Below, in pieces: positions 28,953 through 38,934 of a stretch of DNA of 38,934 bases. The notes beneath the pieces were generated by a model. The model did not search any database and was not told the DNA's origin. It saw only the letters and a program-made list of their open reading frames with translations. This stretch comes from a virus. The position numbers were made by a program, and so were the translations under genes. The stretch lies in IMG/VR virus record IMGVR_UViG_3300020717_000186, positions 1 to 38,934 of that record; one strand, 5' to 3'. Position 1 is the stretch's first letter. The number at the start of each line of letters is the position of its first letter.

Positions 28953-30185
28953 CTACCAAGTGATTGTATCGTCGTCTGCGTTAGCATCCTCTGTCACTTC
29001 GTTGAATAACTTTTCACCATCATCAGTACGCAAATATTTTTGCACTAATTGTTTGATATAAGTACGCTCACTATCCATTCCACCATCTTGTGAATAGAAC
29101 GGGAAGATTGCTACCTCAGCTGCTTCTAACAAATCAAAACCATCATATAACAAACCAGCCATCTCTACTGAAATACGAGTAGAAATTGCGGTAGTTAATT
29201 TACCAGCATCACCTTTGATTTGGTCTCTAGTGTGTGCTGCAATTTCAGCTACTGCTTTCAAATCCTCTTTGTTTGTGTCAGGATATAACATCTCTAACAA
29301 TTCAAACTCCTTATCCTTATCTAATGTATCTACCTCAATTGTAACGAAACGGTCTAACAACGCACGGTCCATAACACGTGTTGCTGTATACTCCGAACCG
29401 ATATTGGCAGTTGCGATAAATGTAACACCCTCAGCTACCTTAACAATTGGTGAATTATCTTGCTCATCTAATCTTAAGTATCTTTGTGTTTGGTCTAACA
29501 CAGTCATTAAGATATTTGATGCCTCAGGATGTGCTCTACTCAACTCATCCAATAAGATTACTGCGTATGGCGTTTTGATTGCTTTTACAAACGCACTCTC
29601 ACTAAAATAAGTACCACTTGCTTTGTTAAAGTGTGTGTTACCAATTAACGCAGCACGCGGGTCTTGCGTTGCACCTAAGTTAAAGTAGTAGAAAGGTCTC
29701 TTTAACGCTTCTACTAATGCTTTAGCGGCCATTGTCTTACCACTACCAGCAGGTCCGGTCATCATAATATTACGAGCGCGAACTGCTGAACGTAATAAGT
29801 ATTTCCACTTTAACTCATTCATAATTAAGTTAGCTGGTTTCAATGCGATACCATCCTCGTGAATGAATTTCTTAACATCCTCATGCTCCGTAGGATTTTC
29901 TACGATAGTTTCAGCGATGTCAGTATTCATAGGTCTAACTAACAAATCGGTGTATTCTTGCATATCAACTAAACGATATGATTTATCACCATTTTTACCT
30001 ACATAACCTCTAACTGCTTTACCAGTTGTTGCGGCTTTCTTTCTTAATGAACTACCTACAATTGTTGATGCTGTACTATCTAATACATCACCTTTTGTGT
30101 TTACCAAACAAAAACGAGATTTAACATTTTCTACTTTGTAAATTTCGTTTGTGTACCCAAATTCCATGTTTTTTACCTTACTCAT
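28953..30185 (-). CDS. MoxR/CobS-like AAA+ ATPase
   Basis: The 410-residue protein has Walker A GPAGSGKT (144-151), Walker B VILLDE (209-214), sensor FIATANIG and arginine-finger region MDRALLDRF (272-280), the arrangement of MoxR/CobS-type AAA+ proteins. Residues 1-120 form an extra N-terminal domain. These ATPases pair with VWA proteins to insert metal into or remodel targets. Its partner is probably the VWA protein at 30368-32440. It has its own dyad-controlled promoter (block C) and a double hairpin terminator. Stop is TAG. Confidence 0.88.
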   Translation of the reverse strand: MSKVKNMEFGYTNEIYKVENVKSRFCLVNTKGDVLDSTASTIVGSSLRKKAATTGKAVRGYVGKNGDKSYRLVDMQEYTDLLVRPMNTDIAETIVENPTEHEDVKKFIHEDGIALKPANLIMNELKWKYLLRSAVRARNIMMTGPAGSGKTMAAKALVEALKRPFYYFNLGATQDPRAALIGNTHFNKASGTYFSESAFVKAIKTPYAVILLDELSRAHPEASNILMTVLDQTQRYLRLDEQDNSPIVKVAEGVTFIATANIGSEYTATRVMDRALLDRFVTIEVDTLDKDKEFELLEMLYPDTNKEDLKAVAEIAAHTRDQIKGDAGKLTTAISTRISVEMAGLLYDGFDLLEAAEVAIFPFYSQDGGMDSERTYIKQLVQKYLRTDDGEKLFNEVTEDANADDDTITW

Positions 30186-30367: not shown

Positions 30368-32440
30368 TTAATCTTTTTTCATAAATAACTCGTTCATAGT
30401 CTTAACAATAGGAACGATTTGTTTAACGTCAATGAATTTACTGTCACTTCCGTACATTGTTTTGAAATTATCACGTGAACGTCCGTAACCATATGTGTCA
30501 CCTACAAAGTAACTCATAACTTTAATACCCATATCCTTAATTTGATGAACCATTTTCTTTGTATGTAACAAAGCGTTATGTCCACTATAAGAACATTGGT
30601 CATTTGAGAACGAAGGCTCACCATCACATATGTTTAAGAAATAACTATCCATATCTTTGTTACTTTCTACAAAGTGTTTCATAATTGCTTGGAAACATAA
30701 CCCCTCAGGTGTTGTACCATTTGCTTGCAATGCTGGGAACAATCGTTTCACTTTCTCAAACTTATCAAAACGGCTATCATAAGCGATACATATGTAAGGT
30801 TTGTTACCCCACGTACCTCTAATAGAAACCTGTACTGCTAAGTTAGATACCATTGAAGCGGCTTTACAAATAGCAATAGAAACTGCTAATGCATCGTTCC
30901 AACATGTACCACTCATACTACCACTACCATCTAAGGTAATATGTAACATTACTTTCTTAAAGCGGTCAACTTCTTTGGTACTGAATACATTTACATAATC
31001 ATAACCTAAAGCTGCAACTAATCGTTTGTCAATTCTACCATTCTTTTGTCGAGGATTAACTGTCTCACGTTCCTCACTACGAACTGCAATACGCTTACCT
31101 AATATAGTACCCATTAAGATACCTCTGCGTAATGTTTCCTCATTCCAACCTTGCCACTCACCTTTCTTATCTTTACCACTTTTCTCATACCAATATGCAA
31201 ATGGGAAATCACTATCTTGCATTAATGCCTCAGTCATTTTCTTTGAAACAATACATTGAACAGGTTTGATATAACCACCATTCTCCAATTGAGTGTCACC
31301 TACCGATGTCATTTCAGTACCACTCTTGTCAATTTGCTCCAATGTATCAGCTTCTTTCTTACTGATTTGCTTTTTCTTAACATTATTGTTTACGAAATCC
31401 TTTTGCTTTTTGATAGCTTTCTTTAATTGCTCCATAGCATTCTTAGATAACTTAACTTTCTTACCACCCGCATCATCACCATCAGTTATCTCAAAGTTAT
31501 CACCCAAATCATCAATTTCCTCAACTTCATCATCACCCTCACCATCACCATCACCTTGTTGTTTTTGTTTAGGTTTTACTTGGACGGTAATATTTTGTAA
31601 GATTGTATTGGTAATCTTTTCTGCTACTGCCAATGAGTCAGTAGTGTTTTTCAATCTATCAATATTCTTTAAGTCCAATGCTTCGTAAATCTCTCTCAAA
31701 CCTTTTAACTTTGATAAGTCAGTATTAGCGTTTGTGATATTGATAATACGGAACATATAACTTTCTAAGCTCTCATCCGTAAATTCGTCACTCTTTAATC
31801 CCTTATCAATTGTATCGGAATAGAAATACTCATCATACAATGCTCTGTAATAATCTCTATATCCTGGACAAGTATTGTAGATATATTGGTCAATACGTCT
31901 ATCCTCTACAAAGTTTACCAATGATTTAACTACATCGAATAAGTTATCTTTGTTTAACTCATATGCTGCACTATCTAATGTTTGAGGATCTTTACCTGCT
32001 GCTTTTGCAAAGCCATTGAATAAATCATTTGGTGCTTGATATTTAGGCAACAATTCAAAGTCCGTAAGAACAATGTGTGATGCTTCGTGCAATGCTAACC
32101 CCACAGCTACGTCAAACTTTTCTGGTTTAACCTCAGCAGATAATACTACTGATTTACCATCCGTATAAGAGTCACCTTTTTGTGCGAACTTAACAGGAAT
32201 AGGTTTGTTTGTAAGAATGTTTACAAAGTTTGAGATTGCTCTTTTGTGTGCATTCAATTTAATCATATCGGCAGTTGATGCCTCTACTTTATTTACCTCA
32301 GCTGGCTTCCATGTACCACCACTCCAATAAGTACTAGGTGTATCATACTGGCTCCATTCATCGGCCCAAAAGGAACTTGCTGATTTTTTAGTTGTTTTGT
32401 TTTTTGAGTAACTACCTCTAAATCTGTCATACCAACTCAT
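30368..32440 (-). CDS. CobT-like zincin/VWA protein
   Basis: The 690-residue protein has LALHEASHIVL (HExxH-type, 118-122), FVEDRRID (177-184, typical of MoxR-associated VWA proteins), an acidic and lysine-rich middle (295-365), and a VWA domain with MIDAS LDGSGSMSG (504-508), TTPEG near 577 and NICDGEPS near 608. It is likely the co-chaperone or metal-dependent partner of the MoxR ATPase. Similar pairs are known in T4-like phages, where their job is not settled. It follows the 44-nt tRNA-like element and is read from promoter block D. Confidence 0.85.
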   Translation of the reverse strand: MSWYDRFRGSYSKNKTTKKSASSFWADEWSQYDTPSTYWSGGTWKPAEVNKVEASTADMIKLNAHKRAISNFVNILTNKPIPVKFAQKGDSYTDGKSVVLSAEVKPEKFDVAVGLALHEASHIVLTDFELLPKYQAPNDLFNGFAKAAGKDPQTLDSAAYELNKDNLFDVVKSLVNFVEDRRIDQYIYNTCPGYRDYYRALYDEYFYSDTIDKGLKSDEFTDESLESYMFRIINITNANTDLSKLKGLREIYEALDLKNIDRLKNTTDSLAVAEKITNTILQNITVQVKPKQKQQGDGDGEGDDEVEEIDDLGDNFEITDGDDAGGKKVKLSKNAMEQLKKAIKKQKDFVNNNVKKKQISKKEADTLEQIDKSGTEMTSVGDTQLENGGYIKPVQCIVSKKMTEALMQDSDFPFAYWYEKSGKDKKGEWQGWNEETLRRGILMGTILGKRIAVRSEERETVNPRQKNGRIDKRLVAALGYDYVNVFSTKEVDRFKKVMLHITLDGSGSMSGTCWNDALAVSIAICKAASMVSNLAVQVSIRGTWGNKPYICIAYDSRFDKFEKVKRLFPALQANGTTPEGLCFQAIMKHFVESNKDMDSYFLNICDGEPSFSNDQCSYSGHNALLHTKKMVHQIKDMGIKVMSYFVGDTYGYGRSRDNFKTMYGSDSKFIDVKQIVPIVKTMNELFMKKD

Positions 32441-32470
32441 ACTTTTATGTTTTAGATTTTAATTAATTGA

Positions 32471-32514
32471 AGATAGTAGGGGAATCGAACCCCTACCAAT
32501 GTTCCGAACTATCT
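32471..32514 (-). ncRNA. tRNA-like acceptor/T-arm minihelix
   Basis: Read on the minus strand, AGATAGT (5') pairs with ACTATCT (3') as a perfect 7-bp acceptor stem. Between them is a 13-nt linker and a perfect T-arm AGGGG-TTCGATT-CCCCT with the invariant loop of real tRNAs. D arm, anticodon arm and variable loop are absent, and no CCA is encoded (TCA follows). The first base is the last base of the TAA stop of the upstream gene. It is either a tRNA deleted in its middle or a tRNA-like processing or regulatory element before the VWA gene. Confidence 0.65.
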
Positions 32515-32750
32515 TATGCTGAAATCTTAGCTCTCTTAGCTAAAGTTCCTAATCTTTGTGAATAGTACATTGCTCTACTCAAGTAATACGCTCTCTTTTG
32601 TTCACTTTGAGTTGTGTTAGCTTGTAACAATGCTTCGTTTAATGAATTTGTGATAAATTCGAATTTAGACTTTAAAGTAGTCATACGTGTTTTTTCAGTT
32701 TTTAGTGTGGTGACTCCACATTTGTTTAGAATTAAAAGTTTAAATATCAT
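32514..32750 (-). CDS. Small helical protein
   Basis: The 78-residue product has a C-terminal helical part (ANTTQSEQKRAYYLSRAMYY, then RAKISA). The first ATG at 32750 follows the upstream stop by 4 nt; Met23 (32684) is an alternative, since the first 22 residues are less convincing. The stop codon overlaps the tRNA-like element. Unknown function. Confidence 0.6.
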   Translation of the reverse strand: MIFKLLILNKCGVTTLKTEKTRMTTLKSKFEFITNSLNEALLQANTTQSEQKRAYYLSRAMYYSQRLGTLAKRAKISA

Positions 32751-35723: not shown

Positions 35724-36395
35724 CTATTTGAACTTAAATCCAGTTAATTTTGTAATTGTAGCTACATCAACTTTATGTGATTCTAAACCTGTTTGTTTTC
35801 CATCAACATTATCAAATAAGAATGCTAAGTATTCTTTAGTTTTAACAATGTAAACTACTTTCCAGCATTGTTTAGGAATTGTTGTTGTTCCAACTTTTTC
35901 AGCTACACCAATATTACCACACCATACATGTACTGAATCATTTGCAATTGACCATTGTCTTTCTGCTGTTTCTACTGACTTCCAATCACCTGCGTTTAAT
36001 GCGTGATATTGAGCTGCCATATTAGAAAAATAGAAACACTCAGCTTGAACTTGTGGAGTTTGGCAAAGGTTATCCGCTGCTGGACACATATGCCCTCTAT
36101 CAACACCTTTTAATCCTTTTGCTTTGTGAGTTTGATTGATTAAATCATAATCAGCTTGCAATTTTGTATCAGCTGCTGCTAATGGATCTGGTGCAAATTG
36201 ATCTTTTCTCGCCATAGGTGATGCACAACCTACTTTTGCTTTTGTGTCCCACCATTCTACCAATACTGGATAATGTAATGATTTACTATAAGTTGCTGTG
36301 TAGTTTGTGTGTTTTAAAACTACCAAATCTTGTGCTTTACCACCGATAGCAAAGAATGCTAAAACGATGATAACTAATAATAACACTTTTTTCAT
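35724..36395 (-). CDS. Secreted DNA/RNA non-specific endonuclease (NUC1 type)
   Basis: A signal peptide (KVLLLVIIVLAFFAIGG, cleaved before QDL) precedes a beta-beta-alpha-metal nuclease. The catalytic GVDRGHMCPAADN (DRGH, 99-102) and FYFSNMAAQYHALN with NxW region are present. It cleaves DNA and RNA outside the cytoplasm, in periplasm or medium. A phage could use it to scavenge nucleotides or exclude other DNA. It has its own promoter and is 4 nt upstream of the HTH gene. Stop is TAG. Confidence 0.88.
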   Translation of the reverse strand: MKKVLLLVIIVLAFFAIGGKAQDLVVLKHTNYTATYSKSLHYPVLVEWWDTKAKVGCASPMARKDQFAPDPLAAADTKLQADYDLINQTHKAKGLKGVDRGHMCPAADNLCQTPQVQAECFYFSNMAAQYHALNAGDWKSVETAERQWSIANDSVHVWCGNIGVAEKVGTTTIPKQCWKVVYIVKTKEYLAFLFDNVDGKQTGLESHKVDVATITKLTGFKFK

Positions 36396-36507: not shown

Positions 36508-38934
36508 TTAAAAATTAATCTTCAAACTTACATCTGAAGTTCTACCCCAACCTTTGAAACCATTTAGCAATGTTCCAGCGTTAGTACCACTTCCGTCAGT
36601 TGCTTCAATCCAATATTGTTTATCAAATAAGTTGTAAACATGTGCTGATGCATATGAATCAAACTTACCGATTTTCAATTTGTAACCAATTCTTGCATTT
36701 GCAACACCAAATCCAGGGATTTTGTATGCTTGTGCAGTCACGGTTGCGATTGTTCTTTTACTTGGGTCGTAGTTAGCGTAGTATTTATCGTTGTATGTGA
36801 AATCACCACCTAAATCTAAACTCTTAGTAACTTGATATCTTACGATAGTTCCTAATTGAGTTTGAGGCTGATTACCTACGAATAAACCATCAGAATATAC
36901 ATTAACCTTTGTTGTAGTGTTCTTAACAGCATCTAATAAAGTTGCAGATGCGTTACCTTTCCACTTCCAATCACCGGCAGATGCGAATGCACCTACTTCT
37001 AATGCTTTAGTTACTTTTACTTTTGCTTCAGCTTCAACACCTTTGTGCAATGCACCTTGTCCTGTGATTAAAGCACTATATTGTGTTCCATCAGGATTAG
37101 TTAATAAAGGAGATGCTAAAGAACGATTCTTAAATTCAGTATAGTAAGCGTTCAACTTAAATGTTAAAGTTCTACTTCTAAAGCCATAACCTGCTTCATA
37201 AGAGTTTGCTTCTTCATTTTTAATGTTAGAGTTTACTGCGTTACCACTATTAGGATTTGTAGTTGTTGTTGTACCATTATAGATGAAACTCAAATAAGGA
37301 GCTCTACTATATTTTCCAGCGTTTACAAATACGTTATTGTATTCATCTAAGTTATAGTTTACACCAAATTTAGCATTATAACCAGTTAAATCAACTTTAG
37401 CTGCATTGTATTCAGTATGAGTTGCGTTATATCTATCAGTTCTACCATAATAAGTTTCAGAAATAGCACCTTGTGCAAATACTGATAATTTATTCTTAGT
37501 GTACTCTAATTGTCCGAATGTACCTAAATAGTTCACTAAACCATCGTAGTCATAAGCTACTCTATTGTTTACTGGAGTTACTTTAGTTACATCGATATAT
37601 GAGTTTGCGTTAGCATCAACTGTCGCATGTGGAGTGAATGGGTCTTTATAGAAAGAGCCACCTACTAAATCTCTCATTTCACGGAAGTGAGTTCCTTTAT
37701 AAGTTCTACCATCAACACCAAAAGATAAGTTTAATTCTTTTGTTAATTTTGTGTTTAATGTAGATAAAGCACCTGTCCAAACGTGATTGTTGATTGAATT
37801 TCTGATACCAAATGCAGAACCATTTACGTTTGTTGCGTTTGCAGTTGTGATAGGGTCAGCAATAATTTGACCTTGTGCATTTCTTGCAGATGGAGTTGTA
37901 CCAATTGTACCTGAACCACCACCATGTCCAAATGATGTATAAACAGCAGTTGTTAATGATGTTTTAGGTGAAATCTGCCAGAAGTCATTAACTTGGAAGA
38001 TTGGTTTATGGAAATAGTTAATATTGATATTCTTTTGTTGACCATTTACAACATAAACATCTTTATTATATTTTAAACCATATTGATTATACTCAGCTGC
38101 AGTCAACATAGAAGAACGTTGTCCGTGCTCTTGTGGTGCACCTAAGAATGTTACTGATAATTTGTGGTTTTTAATATCTTTAGCGTAAGATAAGAAATAA
38201 GAATATGCTTTAATATATGAATTGTTTACATACTCACTTCCTTGTGTAGTTGAACCTACGAAAGAAAATGCACCATTCTTAGTGTTACCTGTTGATAATG
38301 ATAATACTGTCTTAGATTGTCCGAAATCAGTCAAAGATTGAGAGATTGAACCACCTTTTTCAGCATCGGTTGTTTTAGTAATAATATTCATAGTACCACC
38401 TACTGATTGGATAGCTAATTTAGAAGCACCCAAACCTCTTTGTACTTGAATTTCTTTCAACTCATCACCAATACCTGCCCAGTTAGAAAAATAGACTGTA
38501 CCACCTTCCATATCGTTTACAGGTACACCATTAATCAATACTGCGATATTTTTGTTATCGAACCCTCTAATGTTAATACGAGAGTCACCATAACCACCAC
38601 CTGATTTAGTTACAAATGCAGAAGGAGTAATTCTCAATAATTCAGGTAATTCTTGTGTACCTAAATTCTCAGCTGCGAATTTTGCATTAACTGATGAGAT
38701 AGCAACCGGAGTTTTTCTATCCACACCTAAGTTAGCAAATACTGCAACTTCTTTCAATCCAATAGATGTAGATTGTAACTCAATTACAATACCATCCTTT
38801 GCATCTACTTTTGCTGTTTTAAAACCAAGATAAGATACTTTGATATCCTCACCTTTCTTTGTTGTTTTAAGTGTGAATGTACCATCTAATCCAGATGTTG
38901 CATTAGCACCATTTTCAGTCGAAATACTAGCTCC
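36508..38934 (-). CDS. TonB-dependent receptor, N-terminus off the window
   Basis: The frame is open to the right edge, so the first ATG at 38757 is internal. The visible start (GLDGTFTLKTTKKG, VSYLGFKTAKVD) is a carboxypeptidase-D-like domain of SusC-type receptors. The plug follows (LPELLRITPSAF, INIRGFDNKNIAVLINGVPV, VQRGLGASKLAIQSVGGTMN) and then a 22-strand-type barrel ending in Phe. It imports a chelate or glycan across the outer membrane using TonB. A terminator follows, so it is not part of the nuclease operon. It could be host DNA or a rare phage-carried receptor. Confidence 0.9.
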   Translation of the reverse strand, partial: GASISTENGANATSGLDGTFTLKTTKKGEDIKVSYLGFKTAKVDAKDGIVIELQSTSIGLKEVAVFANLGVDRKTPVAISSVNAKFAAENLGTQELPELLRITPSAFVTKSGGGYGDSRINIRGFDNKNIAVLINGVPVNDMEGGTVYFSNWAGIGDELKEIQVQRGLGASKLAIQSVGGTMNIITKTTDAEKGGSISQSLTDFGQSKTVLSLSTGNTKNGAFSFVGSTTQGSEYVNNSYIKAYSYFLSYAKDIKNHKLSVTFLGAPQEHGQRSSMLTAAEYNQYGLKYNKDVYVVNGQQKNININYFHKPIFQVNDFWQISPKTSLTTAVYTSFGHGGGSGTIGTTPSARNAQGQIIADPITTANATNVNGSAFGIRNSINNHVWTGALSTLNTKLTKELNLSFGVDGRTYKGTHFREMRDLVGGSFYKDPFTPHATVDANANSYIDVTKVTPVNNRVAYDYDGLVNYLGTFGQLEYTKNKLSVFAQGAISETYYGRTDRYNATHTEYNAAKVDLTGYNAKFGVNYNLDEYNNVFVNAGKYSRAPYLSFIYNGTTTTTNPNSGNAVNSNIKNEEANSYEAGYGFRSRTLTFKLNAYYTEFKNRSLASPLLTNPDGTQYSALITGQGALHKGVEAEAKVKVTKALEVGAFASAGDWKWKGNASATLLDAVKNTTTKVNVYSDGLFVGNQPQTQLGTIVRYQVTKSLDLGGDFTYNDKYYANYDPSKRTIATVTAQAYKIPGFGVANARIGYKLKIGKFDSYASAHVYNLFDKQYWIEATDGSGTNAGTLLNGFKGWGRTSDVSLKINF

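Follow-up and report, generated by a model that had tools for sequence, protein, structure and literature searches.

In mitochondria, tRNA-shaped units that lie between genes are excised, and the mRNAs are thereby freed from polycistronic transcripts. Phage T7 possesses repeated intergenic structured sites at which its polycistronic message is cut by RNase III. Plant mitochondria also contain t-elements, that is, tRNA-like structures at the ends of mRNAs, which are recognized by RNase P and RNase Z and define the ends of transcripts but are not translational (PMC11658184). Two phage RNAs, M3 and C4, are likewise cut by RNase P, as are some mRNAs (PMC11143913), and studies of the minimal model substrates MD1 and pATSer indicate that a stack of the acceptor and T stems, of 12 bp in MD1, suffices for this enzyme (PMC11221534). 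In the cluster K mycobacteriophages, repeats named SAS and ESAS are located before gene starts, some of them with inverted repeats (PMC3203893).

We analyzed a stretch of viral DNA of 38,934 nucleotides (positions 1 to 38,934 of IMG/VR virus record IMGVR_UViG_3300020717_000186), which we call the window. An earlier note on this DNA described a 44-nt element, resembling the acceptor and T arms of a tRNA, between two genes. The element is present as described and lies on the minus strand, which carries nearly all the genes around it. From 32515 to 32467 it reads AAGATAG-TTCGGAACATTGG-TAGGGG-TTCGATT-CCCCTA-CTATCTT-CAA. The whole tRNA-like minihelix with its 3' N-C-A-A (AAGATAGTTCGGAACATTGGTAGGGGTTCGATTCCCCTACTATCTTCAA) spans 32467-32515 and scored 52.8 bits with covariance model R1 and 57.8 bits with model R2 (E 6.5e-14 in its own record), R2 having been built with the window minihelix and its relatives. 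A search with R2 found this single copy in the window record.

The 5' strand of the acceptor stem is AAGATAG (32509-32515), of which 32514-32509 form the 6-bp core; the A at 32515 is position -1 of the minihelix and also the second base of the UAA stop codon of the preceding gene. It is followed by a mini D-arm (32502-32508), which consists of UU (32508-32507), a CGG loop (32506-32504) and AA (32503-32502), and of which the stem pairs covary among relatives (UA, CG, AU, GC). The variable spacer CATTGG (32496-32501) stands in place of the missing anticodon arm and variable loop. Then come the 5' strand of the T stem, UAGGGG (32490-32495), the T loop UUCGAUU (32483-32489; T54 T55 C56 G57 A58 N N), which is nearly invariant in the family, and the 3' strand of the T stem, CCCCUA (32477-32482). 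The 3' strand of the acceptor stem (32470-32476) is CUAUCU plus U 32470, which is position 73 and can pair with A -1, and C-A-A (32467-32469) represents positions 74-76. The earlier note had divided the pairing into a 7-bp acceptor stem and a 5-bp T stem. The continuous 12-bp pairing holds, but the relatives place the register at 6 + 6 bp, to which an A-U pair may be added (12-13 bp). Similarly, the 13-nt linker is there and the anticodon arm is missing, but the D arm, which had been taken as lost, is kept as the 2-bp mini D-arm UU-CGG-AA. In nearest-neighbor folding of the window sequence, an alternative hairpin (-15.2 kcal/mol) was lower in energy than the minihelix (-12.7 kcal/mol); the fold in the window therefore rests on covariation and not on energy.

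The upstream gene (32514-32750, minus strand) encodes 78 amino acids, and its UAA stop codon (32516-32514) covers the start of the minihelix, in agreement with the overlap reported before. Its product had no match in Pfam or NCBIfam. The downstream gene (30368-32440, minus strand; PHROG 1576) encodes 690 amino acids and starts 29 nt past the minihelix. It had been called a VWA gene; the MIDAS-like motif (DGSGSM ... CDGEP) is indeed present, but no Pfam match was obtained, and we refer to it as VWA-like. Its product also possesses a HEASH stretch (LHEASHIVLTDFE), which is a zinc-protease-like HExxH motif.

Relatives of the VWA-like protein were found in nine viral loci, with 74-100% identity, and the minihelix is located directly before the gene in all of them, with identical stems and a linker of 11-14 nt by a first count. 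In an exact search with its 23-nt core, 12 stretches belonging to other viral contigs were seen to contain the window minihelix. The same minihelix also follows a gene of the SPFH/lipoprotein family (phrog_200), where it overlaps the stop codon of that gene. Since the same minihelix stands behind a different gene, its presence in the window is no local accident, and it is not bound to one gene.

We then scanned viral contigs with two motifs. The first consisted of the linker and T arm (TTTGGAAY, a spacer and GGTTCGANTCC) and the second of another linker (AAYGGTT, 8 nt and GGTTCGATTCC), the acceptor being unspecified in both. Among the listed matches of the first scan, 70 of 101 distinct sites possessed a perfect 6-bp acceptor stem and a 6-bp T stem. 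These paired sites carried at least 26 acceptor sequences, and permutation of the partners gave a mean of 8 and a maximum of 15 such sites, as compared with 70. Among the listed matches of the second scan, at least 11 bp (11-13 bp) were formed at 71 of 111 distinct sites, and all six acceptor pairs were formed at one register in 33 listed sites, against 1.3 expected. Because acceptor pairing was absent from the search patterns, these two scans are the least biased tests in this study. The earlier note had argued that random decay of a tRNA would not keep both stems exact, and a non-random origin is borne out by the score of the window copy, by the exact core in other contigs and by perfectly paired relatives with unrelated stems.

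The family comprises, as a lower bound, well over a hundred sites in metagenomic phages, in addition to cultured Mycobacterium phages. Its carriers differ strongly in gene content, and their hosts probably belong to different phyla. Few bacterial genomes carry the minihelix: among 84,980 species genomes there were ten motif matches, of which one, the locus L244 in a Bacteroidetes MAG, was a clear family member. Two of 296 Bacteroidota genomes matched, and one of these was again L244. We rejected L244 as a bacterial minihelix, since 12.1 kb around it is 100% identical to a viral contig; this identity means that phage sequence was probably binned with the host. L244, together with L284, is the Centralia_MAG_339 contig of a species-representative MAG, and the viral locus involved in the identity is L164. 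Microcystis phage Mel-JY01 has one candidate, with 31.9 bits and a bulged acceptor. The prophage prophiBWHA-1 of M. abscessus holds one minihelix (L294, 1441-1630) with short G-rich repeats on its flanks, among them GAGGTTGGTCTAGG and GGCTGGGTTGGTCTAGGG on the upstream side.

Arrays of real tRNAs scored up to 29 bits with R2. Minihelices of 20-29 bits, which include several mycobacteriophage copies, were consequently accepted only by position, strand and length. Some other matches were rejected. The BLAST matches of the 57-nt window element in cultured phages (a Vibrio DNA polymerase and the annotated tmRNA of cr52_1) were regarded as chance or tRNA-like, and the weak model matches in the crAss-like phages W04 and W05 include a full-length sequence like tRNA-Asp, as judged by eye from its anticodon GTC. 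The annotated tmRNA of crAss-like phage cr52_1 (L143, 1155-1535) has a minihelix-like acceptor/T arm in its 3' part (AGTAAGT...ACTTACT), and its 5' acceptor has no obvious pairing to the annotated 3' end.

The core of the family is a 12-bp acceptor/T helix, in which the acceptor stem and the T stem usually have 6 bp each and the T loop is UUCGAUU; the acceptor is often lengthened by an A-U pair at -1/73. That is, a T loop of the UUCRANN type is placed on a T stem that is stacked on an acceptor stem, as in tRNA, and the stack has the length of about 12 bp found in a minimal RNase P substrate. In the alignment of 84 distinct sequences (A2), 98.3% of the pair cells were standard pairs and 14 of 15 pairs showed two-sided changes, percentages that are biased toward structure because A2 was gathered with a pairing model; when the partners were slid by one column, pairing fell to about 56%. 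The mycobacteriophage set was paired at 92.8%, and its D-stem pairs are AU, CG, UA and GC. All three helices (acceptor, T and mini D) covary. The compensatory changes that the earlier note proposed to look for in related phages do occur, and none of the relatives examined at the window site has a full tRNA there.

The mini D-arm was found through variants of the linker. It has 2, rarely 3, bp around a three-base YGG loop: UU-UGG-AA, CA-UGG-UG, CU-UGG-AG, UA-UGG-UA and AA-CGG-UU, in addition to UU-CGG-AA of the window. We infer that its GG probably stands in for G18-G19 in a contact with the T loop. The spacer past the mini D-arm is 3-6 nt in most relatives, and a few (L166, L287) have an extra hairpin there. 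At the 3' end of 82 elements, position 73 is U in 64, position 74 is C in 77, position 75 is mostly A or U, and position 76 is A in 58; the mycobacteriophage copies end mostly in A-C-G-A, and those of the array in G034 mostly in C-C-C-A. Judged from these bases, the 3' N-C-N-A appears to be a mimic of NCCA. When single sequences were folded by energy models, the minimum was usually a fold other than the 12-bp one, which lay a median of 1.85 kcal/mol higher. Longer members of 63-102 nt with an additional arm, some of them with CCA, are located in L287 (4367-4435 and 5469-5570), L265 (673-735) and L166 (3510-3572). They may be transitional forms that link the minihelix to tRNA or tmRNA-like RNAs.

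The position of the elements relative to genes was also clear. An ORF of at least 60 codons on the same strand ends between -40 and +5 nt from the element in 71 of 82 cases, as compared with 9 of 82 on the opposite strand. In 20 elements, including that of the window, the stop codon overlaps position -1/+1. That is, a tRNA-like structure stands at gene borders on the sense strand, which is the placement of t-elements and of mitochondrial punctuation. The array in G034 holds 11 copies within 4.5 kb. A 69.7-kb record with 10 copies is Mycobacterium phage Fowlmouth, of which the host is M. smegmatis mc2 155; Fowlmouth and its relatives MrMiyagi and Cuke, which are also M. smegmatis phages, have corresponding arrays, with 12-13 matches per region when the filters were off, and Papyrus and Indlulamithi gave 10 (some of them weak) and 11 matches. 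Arrays of 10-13 have about one minihelix per non-overlapping gene junction. Several of the gaps without a model match hold visibly related divergent versions, and others hold none.

In three annotated mycobacteriophage regions, all 37 matches were on the coding strand, and the minihelices of these phages are typically located 8-10 nt past a stop codon and 39-50 nt ahead of the next start. The records of Fowlmouth, MrMiyagi and Cuke have no annotated feature at the minihelices. At the gp57/gp58 junction of Fowlmouth, the acceptor is GACCGG/CCGGTC and the T stem GGTAGG/CCTACC; at the orthologous junction of Cuke, they are GACCAG/CTGGTC and AGACGG/CCGTCT, which is a compensatory change. Nearly all the mycobacteriophage copies, and also those of G034 and L264, are followed by a stable hairpin of 5-9 bp and then by a ribosome-binding site, the mycobacteriophage hairpins beginning 1-3 nt past the N-C-N-A end. 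Such a hairpin follows 29 of the 82 elements and is missing in the window and after most non-mycobacterial copies. A small hairpin, directly ahead of the ribosome-binding site, was also seen behind most array elements in L264, L265 and L287-L289, and the mycobacteriophages have a repeated leader, ACAACAGAAAAGGATGG.

We compared the minihelix with known RNAs. ARAGORN found no tRNA or tmRNA in the window or the arrays, and Rfam 15 gave no match at the gathering score for the window or for eight further loci from arrays or relatives. The element is not a tRNA, having no cloverleaf, no anticodon arm in most copies and no tRNA call. It is also not a tmRNA: the match of the window to RF00023 is only sub-threshold (15.4 bits against a gathering score of 47). 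With the tRNA-like domain of tmRNA it shares an acceptor/T helix and the lack of a normal anticodon arm; unlike tmRNA, it has no tag ORF or pseudoknots, it combines a 12-bp stack with a 2-bp D-arm, and it occurs in many copies per genome. The t-elements are organellar homologues of tRNA with a typical tRNA-like secondary structure, whereas the minihelices are about 47 nt long, have a 2-bp D-arm, no anticodon arm and free stem sequences, and are located in phage operons. We did not count them as t-elements, since they have no cloverleaf, show no tRNA homology and belong to a different biology. The punctuation marks of mitochondria are working tRNAs, whereas the phage minihelices cannot decode. 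MD1 and pATSer are laboratory constructs, whereas the minihelices arose by natural evolution, covary as a family and possess a mini D-arm. M3 RNA and the antisense C4 RNA are individual phage substrates of RNase P and not a repeated intergenic punctuation element. The RNase III sites of T7 are long imperfect hairpins without tRNA features, and SAS/ESAS consist of a 13-bp motif of the GGGATAGGAGCCC type and 17-bp imperfect repeats for which no tRNA-like fold is described; both differ from the minihelices in these respects.

The stems vary freely while the length, the T loop, the GG and C74 are fixed, and the elements are placed at gene junctions. This combination is best accounted for if RNase P and RNase Z excise the element, and we consider it fairly probable that the minihelix functions as punctuation of operon mRNA, excised by host RNase P (and RNase Z). 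In the proposed mechanism, host RNase P would read the 12-bp ruler and the elbow, in which the GG of the mini D-arm would lie against the T loop. Its cut would fall where the upstream gene ends, separating position -1 from the acceptor stem, and RNase Z or 3' trimming would cut after position 73-76. The polycistronic message would thus be split into smaller units, and a downstream unit with a hairpin at its new 5' end, beside the ribosome-binding site, would be protected against decay that depends on the 5' end. The cut in the window would place the 78-aa gene and the VWA-like gene on separate units. Several observations count against this reading. When the stop codon covers -1/+1, a cut there would land inside UAA. 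The non-mycobacterial group has U, and not A or G, at position 73, and C is seldom found at position 75, so that the RCC contact of RNase P would be incomplete. The energy models usually prefer other folds, and the window lacks the following hairpin.

The placement behind stop codons can also be considered in another way. The minihelix may remain uncut as a protective 3' structure, which, once cleavage has taken place at another site, would block 3' exonucleases or RNase E and stabilize the upstream mRNA; it would perhaps be CCA-tailed by the host enzyme, and the tRNA shape would serve only stability. Consistent with this idea, the elements often stand directly behind the stop codons of genes that are likely to be highly expressed, the gene upstream in the AAGGATG group is that of an HK97-type major head protein, and the N73-C-N-A looks like a CCA end. 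A plain hairpin would suffice for protection, though, while the strict T loop, the YGG mini D-arm and the 12-bp length point to a reader of the tRNA shape, and the hairpins before the next genes are left unexplained. We therefore regard this possibility as unlikely. The earlier note also raised the idea of a decoy. As such, free minihelices would titrate host enzymes that process or modify tRNA, or defense nucleases that attack tRNA. The retention of only the elbow and acceptor of a tRNA, without the anticodon, and the number of copies, up to 13 per array, suit such a sponge. A sponge does not need one copy per gene junction, after the stop codon and on the coding strand, and many phages, including the window record, have a single copy. 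Given the strict intergenic post-stop placement, the decoy is less likely than a processing signal, and we give it a rather small chance.

We put at a similarly low level the view that the minihelix is an attenuator-like site at which a protein of the phage or the host binds and regulates translation or transcription of the downstream gene, its tRNA shape being incidental. The fixed distance of 39-50 nt to the next start in the mycobacteriophages fits such a site, but the stems vary freely where the tRNA-specific T loop and GG do not, and the element is common to phages whose gene content, and probably host phyla, differ widely. The sequence also resembles the 3' halves of tRNAs, and a few members (L166, L265, L287) have an extra arm, as would be expected of decayed or recently deleted tRNA genes or of an attachment site derived from a tRNA. 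This origin is scarcely credible. There are dozens of different, perfectly paired stems with compensatory changes, and ten or more copies per genome; in Fowlmouth, MrMiyagi and Cuke, minihelices are kept at junctions that are orthologous. A recent tRNA deletion at the window site, another proposal of the earlier note, is refuted by the conservation of the minihelix in relatives with 74-97% protein identity, by its unrelated gene contexts and by its covarying stems. An attachment site made from a tRNA 3' half has no need of pairing with the 5' acceptor strand, which is conserved as a partner here, while the stems differ freely and one phage holds multiple copies. The ideas of an integrase attachment site and of a tRNA deletion were dropped on the basis of the covariation and the multiple copies. 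A signal for RNase P and RNase Z, at which cleavage would occur, is thus the best supported of the three readings offered in that note.

In the open full texts that were searched, there was no description of this family. The minihelices are apparently a large, undescribed phage RNA family that neither Rfam nor the phage annotations examined contain, and most likely a new variety of tRNA-like signals for mRNA processing. In the broadest form of the punctuation reading, these widespread tRNA mimics without an anticodon would be a general punctuation code of polycistronic phage mRNAs, and the RNase P of the host would cut at them, together with RNase Z and perhaps the CCA-adding enzyme; we give this a slightly better than even chance. 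If the cleavage is true, phages make operon-processing signals from the smallest RNA shape that the tRNA machinery reads, the role of RNase P widens to systematic punctuation of mRNA in bacterial viruses, and natural minimal tRNA mimics are supplied. Such punctuation would be the counterpart, in bacterial viruses, of mitochondrial tRNA punctuation without the tRNAs, and the phages of M. smegmatis are a direct test system for it.

Some other genes of the window were also recorded. A gene for an AAA ATPase of the MoxR/CbbQ type (28953-30185) comes after the VWA-like gene, and a DNA/RNA non-specific endonuclease is encoded at 35724-36395 on the minus strand. A phage-borne TonB-dependent receptor, with plug and barrel, is encoded at 36508-38757 on the same strand, and this receptor suggests a host that belongs to Bacteroidota.
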